Under the pieces are notes generated by a model. It saw only the letters and a list, made by a program, of their open reading frames with translations. It was not told where the DNA came from and did no database searches. Of a stretch of 64,000 bases of DNA, positions 20,536 through 30,891 are shown piece after piece (the stretch's first letter is position 1; every line of letters starts with the position of its first letter). The DNA is from Bradyrhizobium sp. MOS002 (lineage in GTDB: Bacteria > Pseudomonadota > Alphaproteobacteria > Rhizobiales > Xanthobacteraceae): assembly GCF_003020115.1 (NCBI RefSeq), contig NZ_PYFX01000001.1, positions 511,501-575,500 on the forward strand, written 5' to 3'. The position numbers were made by a program, and so were the translations under genes.

Positions 20536-21681
20536 ATGCAGCAGGCTTCGGTCGAGAAGTTCTCAGACCTCATCGGCGCGATCTACGACTGCGTGATCGC
20601 GCCGGAACGCTGGACGGGCGTTCTAAATGAGATTCGCACGGAGCTCGGCTTCGCGACCGCCGTGCTCTCGGCCTATAGCCTCACGAACATGAGGATCGGA
20701 GTCAATGCCGCGTCCGGGACCGACCCTGTCCAGACGATGGCCCGGACCAGCATCGAGTATGCGCCCGATATCGTCGAACTCTGGGGCGGCGTTGAGCGCA
20801 TCCGGCAATATCCACTTGGAGAACCGATCATTCGATCCCAGGCGGTCCCGGAGGAAACAGTCCTCGGAAATCGCTATCACCTGGAATGGGCTCTCCCCAA
20901 GGGCTTGTTCGACGCCGTCGGCGTCGCCCTCGTTCGCGAAAAAACAATGATCGGCAATGCGACATTCAGTCAGCATCAGTCGGACGGAGCCATTGACGAT
21001 GCGCAGGTCAGCGGATTGCGCGTTCTCGCACCTCACATCCGCCGTGCCGTGATCATCAGCAATCTGTTCGACATGAAGACCTTGGAAGCCGCGACATTCG
21101 CCGCGACAGTGGAGGCCCTGACGGTCGGAGTCGTTCTGGCGGACGACGATTCGAAGATCGTTCACACCAATTCCGCAGCCACAGCCATGCTCGCGGCAAG
21201 CGATCCACTTCTGGCTCGACATGGCCGGATCGCCGTTCAATCGGCGACCACCACCAGCACGTTGCAATCGGCCATCGCGCAAGCAGCAAAGGACGAGGCG
21301 GCACTCGGCCAAAAAGGCATCGGCATCCCGATCCCCCGCTCGAGCGGAGACCCTCTCGTCATTCACGTTCTGCCGCTGCGACGCGGCGACATGCGGGCGG
21401 GCCTGGTCCAGCGCGCCGCCGCCGCTCTGTTCGTGGCATCGGCCTCCGGTCCGCCGCAGCTGCCTCACGATGCTCTCGTCCAGCTCTACGATCTGACGCC
21501 GGCCGAAATTCGCATCTTCGAGCTCATCTGCGATGGACAGACACGCGAGGCGATCTCGTCGCAACTCGGGGTGTCCGTCAGCACCGTGAAAAGCCACCTC
21601 TTTCATGTCTTCGAAAAGACAGGTTGCCGGCGCCAGGTCGACCTGGTCAGGCTGGCAAGGTCGCTGGCCTTTCCGGTGTAG
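20536..21681 (+). CDS. LuxR-family regulator, tandem copy 1
   Basis: A 381-residue cytosolic transcription regulator. Seen: an N-terminal domain I cannot assign (residues 1-185), a PAS-like segment (about 194-222, VGVVLADDDSKIVHTNSAA), and a C-terminal LuxR helix-turn-helix (about 318-374) with LTPAEIRIFELICDGQTR and LGVSVSTVKSHLFHVFEKTG. There is no receiver domain and no recognisable autoinducer domain. The next gene encodes a close copy 58 bases downstream, with the same leader sequence before its start, so this is a recent tandem duplication. Confidence 0.9.
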   Translation: MQQASVEKFSDLIGAIYDCVIAPERWTGVLNEIRTELGFATAVLSAYSLTNMRIGVNAASGTDPVQTMARTSIEYAPDIVELWGGVERIRQYPLGEPIIRSQAVPEETVLGNRYHLEWALPKGLFDAVGVALVREKTMIGNATFSQHQSDGAIDDAQVSGLRVLAPHIRRAVIISNLFDMKTLEAATFAATVEALTVGVVLADDDSKIVHTNSAATAMLAASDPLLARHGRIAVQSATTTSTLQSAIAQAAKDEAALGQKGIGIPIPRSSGDPLVIHVLPLRRGDMRAGLVQRAAAALFVASASGPPQLPHDALVQLYDLTPAEIRIFELICDGQTREAISSQLGVSVSTVKSHLFHVFEKTGCRRQVDLVRLARSLAFPV

Positions 21682-21739: not shown

Positions 21740-22882
21740 ATGCAGCAGGCTTCGGTCGAGAAGTTCTCTGACCTCATCGGCAGTATCTATGATTGTGTGA
21801 TCGCGCCGGAACGCTGGACCGAAGTTCTGGACCAGATTTGCGCCGACTTCGGCTTTGCCACCGGCGCGCTCTCGGTCGCCAGCCTCTCGAACATGAAAGC
21901 CGTCGTCAATGCAGTCTCCGGGTCCGACCTGGCCCAGATGGCCCAGAACGGGGTCGGCTACGGCCCCGATATCATCGAGCTCTGGGGCGGCGCCGAGCGC
22001 ATTCAGCAATACCCGCTCGGCGAGCCGATCGTTCAATCCCAGGCGGTCCGGCCGGACGTCATTTCCAGCAATCGCTATTATCGCGAATGGGCCCTGCCCA
22101 AGGGCTTGTTCGACGCCGTTGCCGTCGGCCTCGTACGCGACAGGACGATGGTCGGAAACGCGATATTCAGCCAGCATGAGTCGGCAGGCCGCATTGACGA
22201 TGCGCAGGTCGACGGATTGCGCCTTCTGGCGCCTCACATCCGCCGCGCCGTGACGATCAGCAATCTGTTCGACATGAAGACGGTGGAAGCCAACACATTC
22301 GCCGCGACGGTGGAGGCCCTGACGGTGGGCGTCGTCCTGGCCGACGAGGATTCGAACATCGTTCACACCAACGCCGCAGCCGCGGCGATGCTCGCGGCCG
22401 GCGATCCGATCGTGACAAGGCATGGCCGGATCGCGGTTCAATCCGCGGCGACCACGGCCGCATTGCAATCCGCCGTCGCGCAGGCAGCAAAGGACGAGGC
22501 GACGCTCGGGCAAAAAGGCATCGGCATCCCGATCCCTCGCCAAGGCGGTGACCCTCTCGTCATCCACGTTCTGCCGCTGCGACGCAGCCACACCCGATCC
22601 GGCCTGATCCAGAGCGCCGCTGCCGCCGTGTTCGTGACGTCCGCCTCCGGGCCGCCGCGATTGCCTCACGATGCGCTCAACCAGCTCTATGATCTCACGC
22701 CGGCCGAGATTCGCATCTTCGAGCTTATCTGCGAGGGACACACACGAGACGCGATCTCGGCCTTGCTCGGCGTTTCCGTCAGCACCGTGAAGAGCCATCT
22801 CATTCACGTCTTCGAAAAGACCGGCTGCCGGCGCCAGGTCGACCTGGTCAGGCTCGCGAAATCGCTGACGTTTCCGGTGTGA
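21740..22882 (+). CDS. LuxR-family regulator, tandem copy 2
   Basis: A 380-residue close paralogue of the preceding gene: same first residues MQQASVEKFSDLIG, same PAS-like segment and same C-terminal helix-turn-helix (LGVSVSTVKSHLIHVFEKTG). Differences are spread through the N-terminal part (e.g. SVASLSNMKAVVNAVSG against SAYSLTNMRIGVNAASG), which fits altered ligand or partner choice with retained DNA recognition. It lies just upstream of the ECF sigma / ChrR genes but is separated from them by their own promoter at 22964. Confidence 0.9.
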   Translation: MQQASVEKFSDLIGSIYDCVIAPERWTEVLDQICADFGFATGALSVASLSNMKAVVNAVSGSDLAQMAQNGVGYGPDIIELWGGAERIQQYPLGEPIVQSQAVRPDVISSNRYYREWALPKGLFDAVAVGLVRDRTMVGNAIFSQHESAGRIDDAQVDGLRLLAPHIRRAVTISNLFDMKTVEANTFAATVEALTVGVVLADEDSNIVHTNAAAAAMLAAGDPIVTRHGRIAVQSAATTAALQSAVAQAAKDEATLGQKGIGIPIPRQGGDPLVIHVLPLRRSHTRSGLIQSAAAAVFVTSASGPPRLPHDALNQLYDLTPAEIRIFELICEGHTRDAISALLGVSVSTVKSHLIHVFEKTGCRRQVDLVRLAKSLTFPV

Positions 22883-22963: not shown

Positions 22964-22989
22964 TGATCCAAGGCCTGTCCTCGTTCGTT
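22964..22989 (+). promoter_or_regulatory. Predicted ECF sigma-E promoter 1
   Basis: TGATCC (22964-22969), 16 bases, CGTT (22986-22989), 31 bases before the start of the first ECF sigma gene. The same arrangement occurs at 24338, 26333 (minus) and 27280. It suggests autoregulation of the sigma/anti-sigma pair. Confidence 0.75.
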
Positions 22990-23020
22990 CCCAGACCCAC
23001 AGGTCGCTTGTCGAGGCGCT

Positions 23021-23677
23021 ATGATCGCTGCTATCCGAGCTTTAGATGCGCCAATCCGGGCGAAGGCTGGTTTTCCCCGGAGGATTGAAGCGCGGCTGTC
23101 GACTGGCACGAGCAAAGGGCCGAAGACAAAGGTGGATTGGGCTGATCTGATCGGACGCGTCGCCTCGGCCGGAGACCGGGAGGCCTTCAAGCGCCTATTC
23201 GAGCATTTCGCGCCACGCATCAAGGGACTGATGCTGAAGGCCGGGTGCAGTTCGGACGAGGCGGAGGAGATTGCTCAAAATACCCTGATCGCCGTCTGGC
23301 GGAAGGCAGGCCAGTTCGATCCTTCCACCGCTGGGGCCGCGGCATGGATATTCACCATCGCGCGCAATTTGCGCATCGATTTGTTCCGCAGCAGAGCGCG
23401 GGCAGACCGCCTGCGAGGCACCTCTGAGCTTCCCGAGGCACCGGATCCCGCGGAACCCGCGGACGCCGTCATGTCCCGCGTGCAGGACGCGGCGCGGATC
23501 AATTCGGCCGTCAAGCGGCTCTCGATGGAGCAATCCATGGTGGTGCGGTTGTCGTTCATCGAGGAGAGGCCGCACCCGGAAATCGCAAGCCTGCTCGGCA
23601 TTCCGCTCGGAACGGTGAAGTCGCGGATCAGGCTGGCGATGAACCGCTTGAGAGACATATTGGACGAAGAAGCATGA
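23021..23677 (+). CDS. rpoE: ECF sigma factor, RpoE/ECF11-like
   Basis: A 218-residue extracytoplasmic-function sigma factor, probably the counterpart of Rhodobacter sphaeroides RpoE. Seen: region 2 (about 55-125) with EAEEIAQNTLIAVWRKAGQFD and AAWIFTIARNLRIDLFR, and region 4 (about 165-215) with RLSFIEERPHPEIASLLG and GTVKSRIRLAMNRLR. The first 35 residues are unusual for the family; the start at 23021 fits the promoter 31 bases upstream, but a later start is possible. It overlaps the ChrR-type anti-sigma gene by four bases (ATGA), the classical pairing. Confidence 0.92.
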   Translation: MIAAIRALDAPIRAKAGFPRRIEARLSTGTSKGPKTKVDWADLIGRVASAGDREAFKRLFEHFAPRIKGLMLKAGCSSDEAEEIAQNTLIAVWRKAGQFDPSTAGAAAWIFTIARNLRIDLFRSRARADRLRGTSELPEAPDPAEPADAVMSRVQDAARINSAVKRLSMEQSMVVRLSFIEERPHPEIASLLGIPLGTVKSRIRLAMNRLRDILDEEA

Positions 23678-24321
23678 CGATCAGCCATCATCCGCCGGAA
23701 GATCTTCTGGCCGACTTTGCGGCCGGCAGGTTGGAAGAAGCCCATCAATTGGTGGTGGGAGTGCATGTTGCGGGTTGCGCACGGTGCGGCCGATTCGTGC
23801 AGGCCATCGAGCAACTTGGCGGCTTGGCGCTTGACGATATCGAGCCGGTGCCGGTCGCATCGGATGCGTTCGAGCGGGTGATGTCGCGCATTCATGACGC
23901 TCCTGAAAAACGAGCGGTGCCGACTGCTGAGATCGCTCGCGGCAGCGAGCAGGATGTTCCGGCGGCGCTGCGAAACTACCGCATCGGCAAGCGCAGGCGC
24001 ATCGCTCCGGGTCTGAGCATGCGCCCGATCGAGTTGTCCGGATCGGGGACGGCGCGGGCATTCTTGCTTCGGTCCGCGCCGGGGACGCGCATGCTTGAAC
24101 ACACACACACCGGCACCGAACTGACCCTCGTGCTCGAGGGCAGCTTCAGCCACGAGGGCGGCCGGTTTGGTCCAGGTGATTTCGACTATGGCGACGACGA
24201 GGTCGACCATCGACCTGTGGTGGGCGACGAGGGCCCCTGTGTTTGCCTTGTCGCAATGACGGGCGACCTGCACATGAACGGCCTGCTCGGCAGGCTGATC
24301 GGGCCATTCGTGCGGCTTTGA
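23674..24321 (+). CDS. chrR: ChrR-type anti-sigma factor, zinc and cupin domains
   Basis: A 215-residue anti-sigma factor that should hold the sigma factor inactive until singlet oxygen or a similar signal appears. Seen: an N-terminal zinc anti-sigma domain with His6, His31, Cys35 and Cys38 (HVAGCARC), the same positions as the ligands of R. sphaeroides ChrR as I recall them; and a C-terminal cupin (about 110-195) with His143, His145, Glu149 and His179, the metal set (HTHTGTE and DHRP). It starts in the stop of the sigma gene (ATGA), so the two are translationally coupled. Confidence 0.93.
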   Translation: MTISHHPPEDLLADFAAGRLEEAHQLVVGVHVAGCARCGRFVQAIEQLGGLALDDIEPVPVASDAFERVMSRIHDAPEKRAVPTAEIARGSEQDVPAALRNYRIGKRRRIAPGLSMRPIELSGSGTARAFLLRSAPGTRMLEHTHTGTELTLVLEGSFSHEGGRFGPGDFDYGDDEVDHRPVVGDEGPCVCLVAMTGDLHMNGLLGRLIGPFVRL

Positions 24322-24337
24322 TCCTTCTTCCGCCGGG

Positions 24338-24363
24338 TGATCCGAACGCGAGCCCGGAGCGTA
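24338..24363 (+). promoter_or_regulatory. Predicted ECF sigma-E promoter 2
   Basis: TGATCC (24338-24343), 16 bases, CGTA (24360-24363), 27 bases before the start of the second ECF sigma gene. It implies that the first sigma factor switches on the second. A nearby TGATCC at 24319 lacks a CGT at this spacing. Confidence 0.72.
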
Positions 24364-24390
24364 TCGAAGGAAACGCAAGGGAGACAGGTC

Positions 24391-24975
24391 ATGGCCGGCT
24401 TAAGCCTGACACGACAGGCGCAGAGCGAAGCATTGCCCGAACTGCTGGCATGCGTTTCGGCGGGCGACACACGCGCCTTCGCAGCGCTGCATGTGCTGAC
24501 GCGGAGCAGGCTGCGCAGGACTGCGCTCGCCGTCGGAACTCCGCCCCACGACATCGAGGACATTCTTCAGGAAGCCTATCTGAAGATCTGGCGCAACGCG
24601 GGTCGGTTCGACGGCGAACGTGCTTCGGCGATGACATGGATGTCCGCGATCGCGCGGAATACCGCCATCGACCATCTGCGGGTCAGAAGACTGCCGACTC
24701 ACGAGCTGGACGAGGCGCTTCTGATTCCGACAAACGCTGATTCATCGCCCATCGACGATTTCGACTACGCCCGCGCCGAACCGATCGCACGCAGCGTGCT
24801 GGCTCGTTTACCGGAAGACCGCCGCAGGCTGGTGGCGCTGGCCTATCTCGAGGGTGAGAGCCGCGCGAGCTTGTCGCGGCGCTTCGGTGTGCCGGTCGGC
24901 ACCATCAAGACCTGGCTGCACCGAACCCTTCTGGCGGTACGCAAGGACTGCCTTGCCGCATCGGCTGCAGCCTGA
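24391..24975 (+). CDS. Second ECF sigma factor
   Basis: A 194-residue ECF sigma factor of a different subgroup from its neighbour. Seen: region 2 with DIEDILQEAYLKIWRNAGRFD and MTWMSAIARNTAIDHLR, a linker (THELDEALLIPTN), and region 4 with YLEGESRASLSRRFGVPVG and TIKTWLHRTLLAVRK. The ATG at 24391 is preceded by AAGGGAGA; starts further upstream would begin before the predicted promoter. The 100-residue protein that follows after 20 bases may be its regulator. It probably acts as a second step in the response governed by the first sigma factor. Confidence 0.92.
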   Translation: MAGLSLTRQAQSEALPELLACVSAGDTRAFAALHVLTRSRLRRTALAVGTPPHDIEDILQEAYLKIWRNAGRFDGERASAMTWMSAIARNTAIDHLRVRRLPTHELDEALLIPTNADSSPIDDFDYARAEPIARSVLARLPEDRRRLVALAYLEGESRASLSRRFGVPVGTIKTWLHRTLLAVRKDCLAASAAA

Positions 24976-24995
24976 AGCAGGCGAGGACCCCACGC

Positions 24996-25298
24996 GTGAC
25001 CGCAGAGATCATCGAATTCCCCAACCCTGGACACCAGGACCTGCTTGTGTCCTCCGTTGCGAGGCTCGAGCAGATGGTGAAAGAGGTCGACCGTCTGGCA
25101 GCCGAGCAGCCCGCGGAATGTCTCGATCATTTGCTCGCTGTCATGGAGCGTTTCGGTGATCGACTGGTCGATCTTGCGCACCTCGTGCTTGACGACGATG
25201 CCAAGCAGAGTGTCCTGATCGCATTCACGTCGCTCTCCGACAAGATCGCGGCGACCAGAGATGCCTTTGACGGATGCGATGGAGCGACGGATCCCTGA
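24996..25298 (+). CDS. Small soluble helical protein, possible sigma partner
   Basis: A 100-residue protein I do not recognise. Seen: no signal peptide or membrane segment, no H-x3-C-x2-C zinc motif, and mostly predicted helix with regularly spaced Leu/Val (ARLEQMVKEVDRLAAE, DHLLAVMERFGDRLVDLAHL). The GTG start has GCGAGGA about 9 bases upstream. Its position 20 bases behind the second ECF sigma gene makes a soluble anti-sigma or co-regulator plausible, but nothing in the sequence proves it. Confidence 0.75.
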   Translation: MTAEIIEFPNPGHQDLLVSSVARLEQMVKEVDRLAAEQPAECLDHLLAVMERFGDRLVDLAHLVLDDDAKQSVLIAFTSLSDKIAATRDAFDGCDGATDP

Positions 25299-25352
25299 AT
25301 TCGGCACTACGTTCGTCCGTTCAACGCGTGAAGTCAGTTCTGCGCGCCGATC

Positions 25353-25853
25353 TTAATTGAGACGGAGCAACGAGATGTTCAGCAAGGTCGCAAAGCCCAC
25401 CCAACCGGCATAGGGAATGAAAAGCGTCGCCGCCAGCCGATCGTTCGCCCATTGACGCCAGACAAAGGCAAGGATCACGGCGAACAGCGCAACAATGACG
25501 CCTAGAGCCACGTCCATGCGATGAAGCGAAAAGAAGATGGGAGGCCATGCAAAATTCAGGATCATCTGCAGGCTCCATAATCTCATCGTCGTTCCGCGCG
25601 GCTCCGCCTCGAAGGTGCGGAATCCGGCCACGGCGATCATCAGGAACAGGATCGTCCAGACCGGTGCGAAGACCGCATCCGGCGGATTGAAAGACGGCTT
25701 GTTGAGCGCCGCGTACCAGGCTCCCGAACGGTTCAGGACCCCGATCAGAATCCCCGCAGCAGGAACCAGAAACAGGAAAGCCGCGAATCGGTACCATCTG
25801 CCGCGCTTCCGGTCGCCATCCTGCTGCAGCGCTCCGTCGTGCGTCCCGTCCAT
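25353..25853 (-). CDS. tspO: TspO/MBR family membrane protein
   Basis: A 166-residue inner- or outer-membrane protein of the TspO (tryptophan-rich sensory protein) family, which binds porphyrins and sterol-like ligands and affects oxidative-stress and pigment genes in R. sphaeroides. Seen: five hydrophobic segments and the signatures WYAALNKPSFNPPDAVFAPVW and LNFAWPPIFF. A charged N-terminal tail (MDGTHDGALQQDGDRKRGR) precedes the first segment. It starts 2 bases after the DUF2177 stop, so both are read from the promoter at 26313-26338. Confidence 0.92.
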   Translation of the reverse strand: MDGTHDGALQQDGDRKRGRWYRFAAFLFLVPAAGILIGVLNRSGAWYAALNKPSFNPPDAVFAPVWTILFLMIAVAGFRTFEAEPRGTTMRLWSLQMILNFAWPPIFFSLHRMDVALGVIVALFAVILAFVWRQWANDRLAATLFIPYAGWVGFATLLNISLLRLN

Positions 25854-25855
25854 GA

Positions 25856-26257
25856 TCAATGCGCCATTTTCTGTGCGACGAGAAATCCGGTCCAGGCGCT
25901 GACACCGGCGAGGAAGGATCCCCAGCACACGTCCGCAACAGTGAGCCCCGTCGACCAATTGCGCAGCGTTGCCTGGTTGGTCAGATCGTAGGTCGCATAG
26001 GTGAAGCAGCCCAGCATCACGCCGGACATGAAGGCGCGCAGAGCGCCGCCATCTTGCTGAGCCGGCAGCACTGCGAACCAGATCAGGCCGACGGGATACG
26101 CCAGATAAAACACTGCAGCGGCGGCGAGGTCGGGCTCCGAGCGCAACATGTCGCCCAGCACCGGCCGGTAAAGTCTCTCAACCATGGTCTTCAGCCAGAT
26201 CATGTCGAGCGCAACGAAGGTCGCAGCCACCGACAGATATGTGAAAAGCAGGCTCAT
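25856..26257 (-). CDS. DUF2177 family membrane protein
   Basis: A 133-residue membrane protein with four hydrophobic segments. Seen: the family start YLSVAATFVALDMIWLKTMV, the central VFYLAYPVGLIWFAVLP, and the end of the third segment GCFTYATYDLTNQATLRNW. The family often accompanies TspO and the DUF1295/flavoprotein/DUF1365/CFA genes in sigma-E regulons of alphaproteobacteria; its molecular role is not known. First gene of the unit behind the predicted sigma-E promoter at 26333. Confidence 0.88.
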   Translation of the reverse strand: MSLLFTYLSVAATFVALDMIWLKTMVERLYRPVLGDMLRSEPDLAAAAVFYLAYPVGLIWFAVLPAQQDGGALRAFMSGVMLGCFTYATYDLTNQATLRNWSTGLTVADVCWGSFLAGVSAWTGFLVAQKMAH

Positions 26258-26312
26258 GTCCGGTCTCCCCTCCGGTGGTGTCGCAACCGGTTTGACAAAG
26301 GCAACGCCTATA

Positions 26313-26338
26313 AACGACGGGAGGCCTTCGCTGGATCA
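26313..26338 (-). promoter_or_regulatory. Predicted ECF sigma-E promoter 3
   Basis: On the minus strand: TGATCC (26338-26333), 16 bases, CGTT (26316-26313), 55 bases before the DUF2177 start. Same element as at 22964, 24338 and 27280. Confidence 0.75.
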
Positions 26339-26414
26339 CGCTGCGCCCTCGTTCCGCCTTGCCGCGCAACCCCGTCACGCCCTTGAACCAGATCGCGCGG
26401 CGCCGGACGTCCGA

Positions 26415-27221
26415 TCATTCCGGCGCCTGTTTGGGCGGTCGTGGAAAGAACGCGCTGGTGCGTGCCTGATAGTCCCGATATCGGCGGCCGCGGGATCGAA
26501 GCATCTGGACCTCGAGCGGGGGTATTCCGGTCACGTGCACGAGTATCCAGTACATGATCGCCGGCGCAATCAGGCTCGCCCAGCCCCATGCGTAGCCCGG
26601 CGACAGCGCGATGACCGGGTAGGCGAGCCATCCGAGCCATTCGAAGAAATAATTCGGATGACGCGACCAGCGCCAAAGCCCGATATCGCAGACCAGGCCC
26701 GCGTTTGCCTTGTGGCGCTTGAAGCCCCGCAATTGCTCGTCGGCGATCGCCTCGCCTGCAACGGCCGCAAGCATGATGGCGGCGCCGGCATAGTCCTGAA
26801 GTCCCAACCCGGTCCGTGGAGCGTGTGCAGCCAGGAAGACCGCGAATGGCAGCGGGACCGAGACGAAGGCCTGCGACTGCAGGAATGCGAACATGCGGAG
26901 CGGCGCCCGCGAGCCCCATTCCTGGGCATAGCTGGCATATCTGGGATCGTCGATACCCGCTGCGGCGCGGCGGGCGATATGCGTCCCGAGCCTCGCCGAC
27001 CAAAGCAGCACCAGCCCGCCCACGAGCATCTGGCGCACTGGCAGCGCCTCGCCGAACGGCAAAAGGGCCGCAACCGCCCCGACGAGGCCGACGGAGAAGG
27101 TCCAGATCGTATCGACCCACCCAGAATTGCCCGTTCGCTGCTGAACGATCCAGGCCAGCCCCATCAACAGCGACAGGGCAAGCGCGATGCCGGCGATGAT
27201 CAGTATTTGCAGGAAATCCAT
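26415..27221 (-). CDS. DUF1295 steroid-5-alpha-reductase-like membrane protein
   Basis: A 268-residue membrane protein of the DUF1295 family, related to steroid 5-alpha reductases and isoprenylcysteine methyltransferases, and so possibly a lipid-modifying enzyme. Seen: six or more hydrophobic segments, the family GNSGWVDTIWTFSVG near residue 30, and the C-terminal cofactor region GLWRWSRHPNYFFEWLGWL, then PLEVQMLRSRGRRYRDYQ. It is convergent with the DUF2177 promoter region and divergent from the flavoprotein operon, and it has its own candidate promoter at 27248-27275. Confidence 0.9.
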   Translation of the reverse strand: MDFLQILIIAGIALALSLLMGLAWIVQQRTGNSGWVDTIWTFSVGLVGAVAALLPFGEALPVRQMLVGGLVLLWSARLGTHIARRAAAGIDDPRYASYAQEWGSRAPLRMFAFLQSQAFVSVPLPFAVFLAAHAPRTGLGLQDYAGAAIMLAAVAGEAIADEQLRGFKRHKANAGLVCDIGLWRWSRHPNYFFEWLGWLAYPVIALSPGYAWGWASLIAPAIMYWILVHVTGIPPLEVQMLRSRGRRYRDYQARTSAFFPRPPKQAPE

Positions 27222-27247
27222 GTCCTCACCATAAGCAAACTTGGATC

Positions 27248-27275
27248 CTTACGTCCGCCTTATGCCCCGGTTTCA
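27248..27275 (-). promoter_or_regulatory. Candidate variant ECF promoter for DUF1295 gene
   Basis: On the minus strand: TGAAAC (27275-27270), 16 bases, CGTAAG (27253-27248), 26 bases before the ATG. Spacing and -10 match the TGATCC promoters; the -35 differs. It may belong to the second sigma factor or be a weaker site of the first. Confidence 0.45.
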
Positions 27276-27279
27276 CGGG

Positions 27280-27305
27280 TGATCCACGCCGTCCGCTGGA
27301 ACGTT
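27280..27305 (+). promoter_or_regulatory. Predicted ECF sigma-E promoter 4
   Basis: TGATCC (27280-27285), 16 bases, CGTT (27302-27305), 118 bases before the flavoprotein start. It is back to back with the candidate promoter of the divergent DUF1295 gene, with only 4 bases between the two -35 elements. Confidence 0.72.
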
Positions 27306-27423
27306 TCCTCAAGCGCATGTGGACGGGTCAGCTATTAGAGCTGTCCTGAGCCGGGCGACGATCGACATTGGCCCGAACCCGGATGTTCCGGCCGTCGCTG
27401 GTGGTATTGGGGGGCGACAAGAC

Positions 27424-28737
27424 ATGCGTTTGGCGGTGATCGGGACGGGAATTGCTGGCAATGCCGCCGCATGGCTCCTGTCAGAGCGTCATGCCGTGAC
27501 CGTCTACGAGCGGGAATTGCGACCGGGTGGACACAGTCATACAGTACGCGTTGACTACGATGGCGAAGAGATCGACGTCGACATCGGCTTCATCGTTTTC
27601 AACGAGCCGAACTACCCGGAATTGACGTCTCTGTTCGCGCACCTGGGTGTGAAGACCGAGGAGACATGCATGAGCTTCGCGATGTCGGCCGACCATGGCC
27701 GATTCGAATGGCGGGGTGGCGGCGAGACCTTCCTTCAGGTCGCCTCCGGCCTGTTTGCCCAGCCGCGCAACCTCTTCTCCCCCTCGTATTTTCGCATGCT
27801 GGCCGAGGTCCGCCGCTTCAATAAGGAAAGCGTCTCCGACTTGCGGGCTGGCCGGCTCCAGAACCTCACACTCGGCGAATATCTGCGCCAGGGAGCGTTC
27901 AGCCCGCGCCTGTTCAGCGATTATCTGGGACCGATGGGGGCCGCCATCTGGTCGTCGCCCTCGGCCGAAATCCTCGCCTTTCCCGCGGAAAACTTCATCG
28001 CCTTTTTCGACAATCACCGGCTGTTGCATCTGGATCGGCCGCTCTGGCGGACCGTCCAAGGCGGCAGCCGGCGCTATGTCGAGAAGCTCACGGCCAGGTT
28101 CAAGGCCAGCATCCGGCTCGGCTGCGCGGCGACGTCGATCCATCGAACCGAGCATGGGGTGACGATCGGCGACAGTCACGGCCATCAGGAATCCTACGAC
28201 GCTGTCGTGATGGCCTGTCACAGTGATCAGGCTTTGGCGATGCTGTCGGATGCCGACCCACGCGAGAGATCCATTCTCGGCGCGATCCGTTACGCGCCAA
28301 ACACGGCCTATCTGCACCGCGACCTCAGCCTCATGCCGAAACGCCGCAACGCATGGGCATCCTGGAACTTCCTGCGCTGGCGACGCGAAACGCCTGCCCA
28401 GAATGACGTCGCCGTGACCTATTGGATGAACCGGCTGCAGGGCATCGACGACAGCAAGCCGCTATTCGTCAGCCTCAATCCCCCTTGCGAGCCGGCGCCT
28501 CATCTCACTTTCGGCAAGTTCACATTCGCGCATCCACAATATGACGCGGGCGCGTTTGCCGCGCAGAGGAACCTGCCCGAAATCCAGGGACACCGCCGTA
28601 CCTGGTTTTGCGGCGCGTGGACCGGCTACGGATTCCATGAGGATGGCTTGCGTTCCGGCATCGCCGTCGCCGAGGCACTTGGCAGTGCGGTGCCGTGGCG
28701 ACGGTCCGGCGCGTTGCTGGCGCAGGCTGCTGAGTAG
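27424..28737 (+). CDS. FAD/NAD(P)-binding flavoprotein (COG2907 type)
   Basis: A 437-residue flavoprotein of the amine-oxidase/phytoene-desaturase fold. Seen: the dinucleotide motif RLAVIGTGIAGNAAAWLL at the start, YERELRPGGHSHTV, then VDIGFIVFNEPNYPEL, and the C-terminal FCGAWTGYGFHEDGLRSG flavin-binding end. The ATG at 27424 follows a G-rich run at about 10 bases. In R. sphaeroides a homologous sigma-E operon (RSP_1087-1091) acts in membrane fatty-acid modification, including furan fatty acids; I cannot say which step this enzyme takes. First of three genes with DUF1365 (3 bases on) and the CFA-like gene. Confidence 0.9.
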   Translation: MRLAVIGTGIAGNAAAWLLSERHAVTVYERELRPGGHSHTVRVDYDGEEIDVDIGFIVFNEPNYPELTSLFAHLGVKTEETCMSFAMSADHGRFEWRGGGETFLQVASGLFAQPRNLFSPSYFRMLAEVRRFNKESVSDLRAGRLQNLTLGEYLRQGAFSPRLFSDYLGPMGAAIWSSPSAEILAFPAENFIAFFDNHRLLHLDRPLWRTVQGGSRRYVEKLTARFKASIRLGCAATSIHRTEHGVTIGDSHGHQESYDAVVMACHSDQALAMLSDADPRERSILGAIRYAPNTAYLHRDLSLMPKRRNAWASWNFLRWRRETPAQNDVAVTYWMNRLQGIDDSKPLFVSLNPPCEPAPHLTFGKFTFAHPQYDAGAFAAQRNLPEIQGHRRTWFCGAWTGYGFHEDGLRSGIAVAEALGSAVPWRRSGALLAQAAE

Positions 28738-28740
28738 AAC

Positions 28741-29523
28741 ATGTTGCAACCGGGCGCTCCAGAACGAACGGCGACGTCATCTGCAGCCGCGCTCTACCTG
28801 GGCCGCGTGATGCACACGCGCATGCGGCCCGTGCACCACAGGTTCGCCTACCGGGTCATGAACCTGCTCATCGACCTCGACCGGCTTGATGAAGCGGATC
28901 GCCAGTCTCGCCTGTTCGGCGTCAATCGCGCATCACTCTTCAGCTTTCACGAATCCGATCACGGCAAGCGTGACGGGGCATCCTTGGGCAACCATGTGCG
29001 ACGCCTGGCCGAACAACGCGATATCGATCTGTCGGGAGGGCGCATCCTCCTTTTGTGCTATCCGCGGGTCTTCGGCTACGTGTTCAATCCGCTTTCGATC
29101 TACTTCTGCTATGGCAGCCACGGCAATCTTGCGCTGCTGATCTACGAAGTCCGCAACACTTTTGGCGAGATCCATTCCTACGTCCTTCCGGTCGAGGATG
29201 CTGCTGCCGGCGGTGCCATACGACAATGCCAGGCGAAAGAGTTCTACGTCTCGCCATTCATGGAGATGCAAACGAGCTATCGCTTCACCATTGCCCCGCC
29301 CGACCAGCAAGTGAAGGTCAGAATCGTGCAGTCCGATGAGCATGGCGCTATATTTACGGCCGCATTCTCCGGGCAGCGTCGCCCGCTGACCGGCCGCTCG
29401 CTGTTGGCGACGCTCGTCACCCTGCCACTTCTCACCTTCAAGGTCGTCGCGGCCATCCATTGGGAAGCGATCCGGCTTTGGCTGAAGAATGTTCCTTACG
29501 TTCCCCGTCCGAACCAACGCTGA
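28741..29523 (+). CDS. DUF1365 family protein
   Basis: A 260-residue protein of the DUF1365 family. Seen: the opening ALYLGRVMHTRMRPVHHRFAY, then LLCYPRVFGYVFNPLSIYFC and IYEVRNTFGEIHSYVLP, and EFYVSPFMEM, all diagnostic. A hydrophobic stretch near the C-terminus (LLATLVTLPLLTFKVVAAIHW) suggests membrane contact. It starts 3 bases after the flavoprotein stop and ends 10 bases before the CFA-like gene. In the cognate operon of other alphaproteobacteria these three genes travel together; the reaction of DUF1365 is not established to my knowledge. Confidence 0.92.
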   Translation: MLQPGAPERTATSSAAALYLGRVMHTRMRPVHHRFAYRVMNLLIDLDRLDEADRQSRLFGVNRASLFSFHESDHGKRDGASLGNHVRRLAEQRDIDLSGGRILLLCYPRVFGYVFNPLSIYFCYGSHGNLALLIYEVRNTFGEIHSYVLPVEDAAAGGAIRQCQAKEFYVSPFMEMQTSYRFTIAPPDQQVKVRIVQSDEHGAIFTAAFSGQRRPLTGRSLLATLVTLPLLTFKVVAAIHWEAIRLWLKNVPYVPRPNQR

Positions 29524-29533
29524 ATGTGAAGCC

Positions 29534-30751
29534 ATGGACCTCGCAGCCACTCACCAGACCGCTCGCTTCGATGACGTTCCCTTGCTCGCGCGGCTCGCGC
29601 TCCGGCTTGCCTCGCGGCTCAAGCTCGGCACCGTGGATGTTCGCCTTCCCGACGGCAGAACGGTGGTGTTGCGGGGAACGCATCCGGGTCCGGCGGCGAC
29701 CATCGAGCTCAACACCTACGCGTTCGCGCGAAGCCTGGTCCTGGGCGGCGATATCGGCATGGCCGAGGCTTACGTTCGCGGCGATTGGAGCACGCCGGAT
29801 CTCTCCCAGCTGCTTTACGTGTTCTGTCTCAACGAGGACCTGGTCGACAGCGCCTTCGCCGGCAATGCACTGGTCCGGCTTTGCCGGCGCGCGCTGCATC
29901 GGTTGCGCCGAAACACGCGACTGGGATCGCGGCTGAACATCCACGCCCACTATGATCTCGGCAACGAGTTCTTTGCGGCTTGGCTCGATCCGAGCATGAC
30001 CTACTCGTCGGCATTGTTCTCGCCCGAGGCGACCGACCTGCTCGCCGCTCAACGGCACAAATACGAACAGCTGGCGCAGGCGATCGAGCTGCGGCCCGGC
30101 CATACCCTGCTTGAGATCGGATGCGGCTGGGGCGGCTTCGCCGAATATGCCGCCAAAACTTGCGGCGCCAAAGTCTTGGCGCTCACCATCAGCAAGGAGC
30201 AGCACGCATTCGCCAGCCGGCGAATCCACGAAGCCGGACTCGGCGAAAAAGTCGAGGTCCGGTTGCAGGATTATCGCGATCAGGACGGGCAGTTCGACCG
30301 GATCGCCTCGATCGAGATGATCGAGGCCGTCGGCGAACCGTTCTGGCCGACATACTTCAATCAACTGCATCAACGGCTCAAGCCGGGCGGCCTTGCCGGA
30401 ATCCAGGCGATCACCGTCCGCGACGAGCTCTTCGACAGCTATCGGCGGCGCGTGGACTTCATCCAGAGATACATTTTTCCGGGCGGGATGCTGCCTTCGC
30501 CGAATGTCCTGCGCTCGCTCGGCGAACGCGTGCAGATGCCCCTGATCCGCGAGCGGGTCTTTGGACAGGACTATGCCAAGACGATCGCGGTCTGGCGAAC
30601 GAGCTTCGGCCATGCCTGGTCGGACCTGACCTCGCTCGGGTTCGACGAGCCGTTCCGGCGGCTGTGGGAATATTACCTGTGCTACTGCGAGGCAGGTTTC
30701 AGGGCCGAAAAGATCGACGTCCGCCAACTGGTATTCGCGCGCCGAAGCTGA
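29534..30751 (+). CDS. Cyclopropane-fatty-acyl-phospholipid synthase family methyltransferase
   Basis: A 405-residue SAM-dependent enzyme that should modify the double bond of unsaturated acyl chains in membrane phospholipids, giving cyclopropane or methylated chains. Seen: an N-terminal lipid-binding part, the conserved NIHAHYDLGNEFFAAWLDP entry, SAM motif TLLEIGCGWGGFAEYAA near residue 195, and SIEMIEAVGEPFWPTYF, then GLAGIQAITV. The ATG at 29534 was chosen because the upstream frame overlaps the DUF1365 end. In R. sphaeroides the equivalent enzyme methylates vaccenoyl chains en route to furan fatty acids, a plausible role here. Confidence 0.92.
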   Translation: MDLAATHQTARFDDVPLLARLALRLASRLKLGTVDVRLPDGRTVVLRGTHPGPAATIELNTYAFARSLVLGGDIGMAEAYVRGDWSTPDLSQLLYVFCLNEDLVDSAFAGNALVRLCRRALHRLRRNTRLGSRLNIHAHYDLGNEFFAAWLDPSMTYSSALFSPEATDLLAAQRHKYEQLAQAIELRPGHTLLEIGCGWGGFAEYAAKTCGAKVLALTISKEQHAFASRRIHEAGLGEKVEVRLQDYRDQDGQFDRIASIEMIEAVGEPFWPTYFNQLHQRLKPGGLAGIQAITVRDELFDSYRRRVDFIQRYIFPGGMLPSPNVLRSLGERVQMPLIRERVFGQDYAKTIAVWRTSFGHAWSDLTSLGFDEPFRRLWEYYLCYCEAGFRAEKIDVRQLVFARRS

Positions 30752-30815: not shown

Positions 30816-30891
30816 TGGTGCCCAGGGGCGGAATCGAACCACCGACACTGCGATTTTCAGTCGCATGCTCTACCAACTGAGCTACCTGGGC
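30816..30891 (-). tRNA. tRNA-Phe (GAA)
   Basis: A 76-base tRNA including an encoded CCA end. Acceptor GCCCAGG pairs with CCTGGGC, the D and T arms (GTTCGATTC) are present, and the anticodon loop CTGAAAA carries GAA. It follows yacG on the same strand, its usual place in this order. Confidence 0.97.

Follow-up and report, generated by a model that had tools for sequence, protein, structure and literature searches.

How far does a sigma-E regulon reach beyond the genes of the sigma factor and its anti-sigma factor, and can it take in a second sigma factor? The question is raised by a locus of Bradyrhizobium sp. MOS002, at positions 22,964 to 30,751 of a 64-kb stretch of DNA (contig NZ_PYFX01000001.1; hereafter the window), in which the genes of an extracytoplasmic function (ECF) sigma factor (rpoE) and of its zinc anti-sigma factor (chrR) are immediately followed by a second ECF sigma gene, here called ecf2, and are accompanied by a set of lipid genes. 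The locus is very probably an ECF11 sigma-E/ChrR regulon in which ecf2 stands under the control of sigma-E. Since the ECF11 promoter consensus has been published, the two regulators match SigE and ChrR, and the furan fatty acid (ufa) gene set is present, the core of the system is already known; what is new is a lineage-specific second ECF under sigma-E, together with a candidate promoter. Among titles and abstract beginnings of the open-licence literature, no report of an ECF11-controlled second ECF in Bradyrhizobium was found.

The genome containing the window (G000; 7.58 Mb in 70 contigs) was compared with 72 named related loci collected by a ChrR profile, 53 of them titled Bradyrhizobium, the nearest being that of CSS354, with 96% ChrR identity. 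Gene calls come from a home-made codon-usage caller and are approximate.

The sigma-E/ChrR pair

The sigma factor encoded by rpoE (23021..23677, + strand; assigned by Pfam) has Rhodobacter sphaeroides SigE as its best match in the PDB (2q1z_A, E 5.5e-40; runner-up 1e-18), and the best PDB match of ChrR (23674..24321, +), a zinc anti-sigma factor with a cupin domain, is R. sphaeroides ChrR (2z2s_B, E 8.4e-29). ChrR also passes the family model TIGR02451 (175 bits, cut-off 124.5), and it stays below NF051881, the equivalog model of cadmium/peroxide/UV-responsive ChrR (185.2 bits, 300 needed). These matches bear out the pair of the R. sphaeroides kind that an earlier, sequence-only reading of the locus had proposed. 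The ligands that it had listed, His6, His31, Cys35 and Cys38 together with a cupin set, are likewise present, the cupin set being His143, His145, Glu149 and His179, and all are invariant in an alignment of eight rows (A3; residues numbered as in the window, ligands aligned with 2z2s_B). By its SigE-like sigma factor, TIGR02451 anti-sigma factor, ligands, promoter (that of its own operon included) and furan genes, the locus belongs to ECF11, and its homology with R. sphaeroides suggests that it would respond to singlet oxygen.

Other ChrR homologues depart from this pattern. The one in G054 (locus L072, 8197-8826, −) is without His6, Cys35 and Cys38 and keeps the cupin ligands, so that its anti-sigma domain is possibly one without zinc. 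Two ChrR matches each were seen in G456 and G539, and G060 (L347) has a second rpoE-chrR system, which is preceded by TGATCC sites; a photolyase-related gene comes after it, and DUF2177 and a fasciclin-like gene are close by.

Four sigma-E promoters in the cluster

The pattern TGATCC-N16-CGTW occurs exactly four times in the window, each time before one of the four transcription units named in the sequence-only reading and with a constant spacing of 16; in 100 shuffles of the 64 kb the mean was 0.28 and the maximum 3. The first site (22964..22989, +, ending in CGTT) lies 32 bp before the ATG of rpoE at 23021, the gene caller having preferred a later GTG at 23132; the second (24338..24363, +, CGTA) lies 28 bp before the start of ecf2 at 24391. 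The third (26313..26338, −, CGTT) precedes, by 56 bp, the start at 26257 (−) of a DUF2177 membrane protein gene (25856..26257, −; PF09945), which is followed by tspO (25353..25853, −; PF03073), and the fourth (27280..27305, +, CGTT) stands 119 bp before the start at 27424 of the flavoprotein gene that opens the lipid operon. All four are intergenic and before starts. Across the 72 loci there were 223 matches at a spacing of 16, and a mean of 5.25 with a maximum of 26 at the other 40 spacings between 0 and 40.

The same sites recur in the relatives. Before rpoE the exact site is found in 64 of the 71 related loci that have this gene, the remaining seven consisting of five with TGATCT-N16-CGTT, one with TGATCC-N16-CGTC (L238) and one cut at a contig end (L224); before DUF2177 a sigma-E site is found in 35 of 44 related genes, and before ufaD in 43 of 44. 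The predicted promoter is the published ECF11 sigma-E/ChrR consensus: TGATCC-N16-CGTA was derived by chromatin immunoprecipitation sequencing in the Pseudomonas syringae ECF11 paper, and the same boxes are described for Shewanella RpoE2 promoters with mapped transcript starts.

The genome scan that had been suggested as a check gave a divided answer. There are 34 exact matches in the 7.58 Mb, about 33 being predicted from 0.28 per 64 kb, so the bare pattern shows no genome-wide enrichment. True sites are marked by clustering and conservation and not by number. Outside the cluster there are 30 sites, of which 22 fall within called genes and eight are intergenic, three of the latter no more than 150 bp before a start. 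When these sites were compared with 60 sites of relatives (fetched from the 109 listed for five genomes), only that before folE was intergenic, before a start and conserved, and the others were rejected as targets; the site in L026, before a gene with a LON domain, and that in L028, before one of the AraC type, had no counterpart among the 60.

A second sigma factor probably under sigma-E

The gene ecf2 (24391..24975, +; assigned by Pfam) immediately follows chrR in 41 of the 72 named loci and is absent from 28 in which 1 kb or more of downstream sequence was available; the other three are too short to judge. A sigma-E site stands before it in all 41, exact in 40 and TGATCT-N16-CGTT in L190, and in this promoter the motif is fixed while the spacer has diverged, in rows chosen by the exact motif. 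In a midpoint-rooted tree of ChrR the ecf2 rows (40 named ones and the window) fall within a single clade of 43 rows with a support of 100 out of 100, the other two rows being L203, without ecf2, and one that is too short. Among the candidates scored, ECF2 orthologues of at least 50% identity were restricted to this genus; they were found in at least 10 of 100 genomes and at least 7 of 397, with G000 in both sets and the shortened copy of G034 excluded. Sigma-E control of ecf2, the first step of a possible relay, is thus well supported at the level of promoter sequence.

The nearest PDB match of ECF2 itself is SigK (4nqw), and it remains below the NCBIfam cut-offs of PRK09646 (SigK; 94.8 of 226 bits) and PRK12514 (120.5 of 265 bits). 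Behind ecf2, none of the genes listed, part of which were scanned for families, could be identified as RskA or another anti-sigma factor; the ECF2 relatives in L177 and L252 have RskA genes behind them (PF10099). Since no anti-sigma partner was recognised beside ecf2, the activity of ECF2 is probably set by its transcription. The small helical protein encoded next, orf100 (24996..25298, +), follows ecf2 in 18 of 18 loci of clade 1; it was considered as an anti-sigma factor and set aside, as it matches no Pfam or NCBIfam family and its AlphaFold2 model of three helices is weak (mean predicted local distance difference test, pLDDT, 73; predicted template modelling score, pTM, 0.49). Ten of the 41 loci have a photolyase-related gene (PF04244, the family having been checked on one) after ecf2.

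A decayed remnant, in which the sigma-E promoter is preserved between the end of chrR and the first half of ecf2, is seen in L346 (6399-7016) and in L249 (Bradyrhizobium sp. CCBAU 51627), the latter being included among the 41; the folE site of the CCBAU 51627 genome is still intact. A record titled Frankia sp. RB7 (L216) holds a locus of the Bradyrhizobium type (ChrR 62%, ECF2 83%) and is probably mislabelled or contaminated.

Furan fatty acid genes and a probable target outside the cluster

The operon at 27424-30751 is by its families and gene order the predicted furan fatty acid set ufaD-ufaO-ufaM, which agrees with the proposal that it is homologous to the lipid operon of R. sphaeroides. 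It comprises a ufaD homologue (27424..28737, +; a flavoprotein of the amine oxidase family, PF01593, in the position of R. palustris RPA2571), a ufaO homologue (28741..29523, +; DUF1365, PF07103, the link between UfaO and DUF1365 being given in PMC7380195) and a ufaM homologue (29489..30751, +; a methyltransferase resembling cyclopropane fatty acid synthase, PF02353), for which the gene caller placed the start at 29534. According to PMC7380195, the three R. palustris genes were enough to let a mutant of R. sphaeroides make furan fatty acids; PMC6852236 describes furan lipid genes as required for ChrR turnover under singlet oxygen in the latter species. In L255 and L257 (G008 and G026), TGATCC sites also stand before a methyltransferase gene, a second GTP cyclohydrolase I gene and a fasciclin gene, and these putative promoters point to an extended regulon in clade 2.

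The regulon had been called self-contained, which does not stand: a conserved TGATCC-N16-CGTW site lies on a different contig (C67, L078), 106 bp before the start of folE, the gene of a GTP cyclohydrolase I (PF01227), and here too the motif is conserved and the spacer has diverged. The folE2 gene of R. sphaeroides is placed in the RpoE regulon (PMC7074977). The comparison covered 195 genomes of the genus. ChrR was found in 70 of them at E <= 1e-15, the remnant genome G034 counted; a 16-base anchor near folE was exact in 88, and anchor and intact motif occurred together in 27. Among the 88 with the exact anchor, the other 107 being left out of the table, the site was intact in 24 and not in 10 of those with ChrR, and intact in three and not in 51 of those without (Fisher 9.9e-11, kinship ignored). 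If only ChrR of the ECF2 clade is counted, which drops G034 and 17 genomes with a distant best ChrR (three with the anchor, none intact), it was intact in 23 of 30 genomes with ChrR vs 3 of 54 without (Fisher 1.5e-11, kinship ignored).

A second ECF-type promoter before DUF1295

Nor does the whole stretch form one response unit, as had been supposed. A gene inside it that the sequence-only reading had overlooked, for a DUF1295 membrane protein (26415..27221, −; PF06966), has no TGATCC site upstream in the window and carries a different ECF-type promoter. In an alignment of its upstream DNA from the 18 clade-1 loci and the window, one conserved block was found apart from the ufaD start and the reversed ufa promoter, GAAAC...CGTA with fixed spacing. 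GAAAC-N16-CGTA is present in 18 of the 18 loci and 19 of the 19 rows, and the spacing of 16 yields 19 matches vs at most six at any other spacing from 8 to 25. Its sole match in the window (27250..27274, −) is separated by five bases from the ufa promoter, to which it runs in the opposite direction.

The distribution of this promoter follows that of ecf2. Among DUF1295 rows for which 250 bp or more of upstream DNA was available (L203 being dropped as too short), those with ecf2 have GAAAC-N16-CGTA in 21 of 23 cases and TGATCC in two (G008 and G026); those without ecf2 lie in the chrR operon in 24 of 25 cases, have their own TGATCC in one and GAAAC in none, a 26th row, the second half of a split match in L236, not being counted. 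The 21 include G549 and G566, two genomes assigned to the BTAi1 type on the basis of ChrR identity and gene order; in both, chrR is followed by ecf2 and its sigma-E site, and the GAAAC site is borne elsewhere by a DUF1295-fufM operon. On account of this co-occurrence, DUF1295, a family with no known role in its Pfam record, is the best candidate for an ECF2 target, a step that we regard as possible, if somewhat short of an even chance.

Further candidates were examined with mixed results. A FufM-like gene also bears GAAAC-N16-CGTA in G000 and G011; since the exact site is found in only five of the 29 genomes with upstream DNA, fufM was rejected as a second target and is not claimed beyond the nearest kin. 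Many other clade-1 fufM rows have GAAGC with GGTN at about the same spacing. A scan of five genomes with YGAAACC-N15-CGTA returned one to ten matches each, 24 in total vs 29 in a reversed control, the DUF1295 site being present in all five. A peak of GAAAC-N17-CGTA in loci without ecf2 (13 matches) was discarded, all its members being coding sequence within called genes, and no common motif was seen by eye in the upstream regions of ECF2 paralogues. As a weak pointer to the promoter of ECF2, GAAAC-N17-CGTA also precedes a 45% relative of ECF2 in three genomes (G019, G023 and G024; L151-L153 and L259); this gene is divergent from another ECF gene, behind which a protein with 26-27% likeness to ChrR is encoded, and GAAAC-N17-CGTA and GAAAC-N15-CGTA lie between the two divergent genes. 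GAAAC-N16-CGTA resembles promoters of Bacillus SigW. EcfG, whose consensus is GGAAC...GTT, was considered as its reader and set aside.

A proposed relay and its alternatives

From the sequence, the families, the conserved promoters and the co-distribution, a course of transcription, a signal and lipid products may be proposed. ChrR would hold sigma-E through its zinc domain until, by analogy with R. sphaeroides, singlet oxygen or organic hydroperoxides release it; freed sigma-E would then transcribe rpoE-chrR, DUF2177-tspO, ufaD-ufaO-ufaM, folE and ecf2 from TGATCC-N16-CGTW, and ECF2, a second-tier relay active once made, would turn on DUF1295 through GAAAC-N16-CGTA. A more far-reaching proposal, to which we give a modest probability, clearly below even, is that in one Bradyrhizobium branch an ECF without its former anti-sigma factor was captured behind chrR to form a two-tier ECF-to-ECF cascade, in which sigma-E would lead to mono-methyl furan lipids and ecf2, ECF2 to DUF1295 and, in some genomes, a FufM-like second methylation, the order of the sigma factors setting the order of lipid synthesis.

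Several observations weigh against the regulon and relay proposed first. Genome-wide the bare TGATCC motif is at chance level; seven genomes with ChrR of the ECF2 clade and the anchor have no intact folE site, and three without ChrR retain one. Both clade-2 genomes examined have TGATCC before DUF1295 despite ecf2, the FufM-like gene has its exact GAAAC site in only five of 29 genomes, those five being all near kin, and the 21 GAAAC rows represent few independent evolutionary events. The reader of GAAAC-N16-CGTA could also be another ECF of the genome, G000 having several ECF genes, with 10 matches to ECF2. A plain ECF11 locus, in which sigma-E drives ecf2 and DUF1295 is read by some other ECF outside the response, has very nearly an even chance of being right. 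It has to contend with the co-distribution given above, 21 of 23 genes with ecf2 vs 0 of 25 without, and with the fact that DUF1295 genes without GAAAC have either their own sigma-E site or a position behind chrR.

The same circuit might answer a different natural signal, an organic hydroperoxide or another stress. Most of these Bradyrhizobium are non-photosynthetic, the photosynthetic ones, BTAi1 included, being only part of the clade. The Caulobacter system is described as answering organic hydroperoxides and other inducers too (PMC6852236). ChrR here retains both ligand sets, however, and the furan lipid genes on which its turnover under singlet oxygen depends in R. sphaeroides are present, which makes this alternative rather unlikely. 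Still less probable, and in our view very unlikely, is that ChrR also holds ECF2, both sigma factors being freed together as a parallel pair and not a relay: ecf2 does lie directly after chrR in 41 loci with no anti-sigma factor recognised among the listed genes behind it, but it is absent from 28 of the 69 ChrR loci with enough DNA, and the RskA partners of its relatives in L177 and L252 belong to a different anti-sigma family. That the shared motif is due to chance or shared coding sequence, as the 34 genome-wide matches and the location of most outside sites within genes might suggest, is scarcely credible in view of four intergenic sites out of four before starts, a spacing peak of 223 against 5.25, and a motif that stays fixed as the spacer diverges before folE and, in rows chosen by the exact motif, before ecf2.

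Comparison with known systems

The closest parallel is the ECF11 system of R. sphaeroides, which shares the sigma/anti-sigma pair, the ligands, the TGATCC element, the furan genes, a GTP cyclohydrolase target and a second sigma gene under sigma-E. The ECF11 review (PMC6852236) describes a core regulon of about eight genes, including rpoE-chrR and the furan genes, with a relay through RpoHII. RpoHII belongs to the heat-shock family, whereas the second sigma factor here is an ECF encoded directly after chrR; the cyclohydrolase is FolE2 in R. sphaeroides and of type I (PF01227) here. With R. palustris the locus shares the order ufaD-ufaO-ufaM (RPA2571-2569), and the fufM gene of that species (RPA0924) has a counterpart elsewhere in the present genome, a CMAS methyltransferase that is FufM-like by family; unlike in R. 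palustris, the furan operon sits in the chrR cluster. P. syringae (PSPTO_1043/1042) and Shewanella RpoE2/ChrR have the TGATCC-N16-CGTA consensus or boxes in common with it, but differ in their targets, and the portions of these reports drawn on here mention no second ECF gene.

For ECF2 itself, the SigK/RskA-type ECFs offer the nearest solved structure and, in L177 and L252, relatives with RskA neighbours, but beside ecf2 no RskA was recognised and a sigma-E promoter is found instead. Within the genus, B. japonicum EcfQ and EcfF, compared by their description in PMC3420878, are also ECFs inducible by reactive oxygen species, EcfQ being without a linked anti-sigma factor; EcfF differs in reading GTAAC(g,a)-N14-15-(c,t)CG(t,a), and the same paper names ChrR for other species.

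On either side of the cluster, two tandem genes of the LuxR type (GerE domain; 20536-21681 and 21740-22882, +), about 83% alike in the part compared, lie immediately 5' of rpoE, with a relative also before rpoE in several clade-1 loci, and a tRNA-Phe gene (30816-30891, −) lies 64 bases past its end. With a tRNA gene next to the cluster and ChrR distributed patchily in the genus (70 of 195 genomes), this may be a place of gain or loss.

Implications

The four local units and folE provide a draft map of this regulon in Bradyrhizobium, and the folE comparison amounts to a natural experiment, in which most genomes with ChrR keep the promoter intact and most genomes without it have lost it. The position of DUF1295 gives a handle on a companion of the furan lipid genes, and ecf2 is a clear example of a way in which an orphaned ECF could be drawn into the regulon of another sigma factor.

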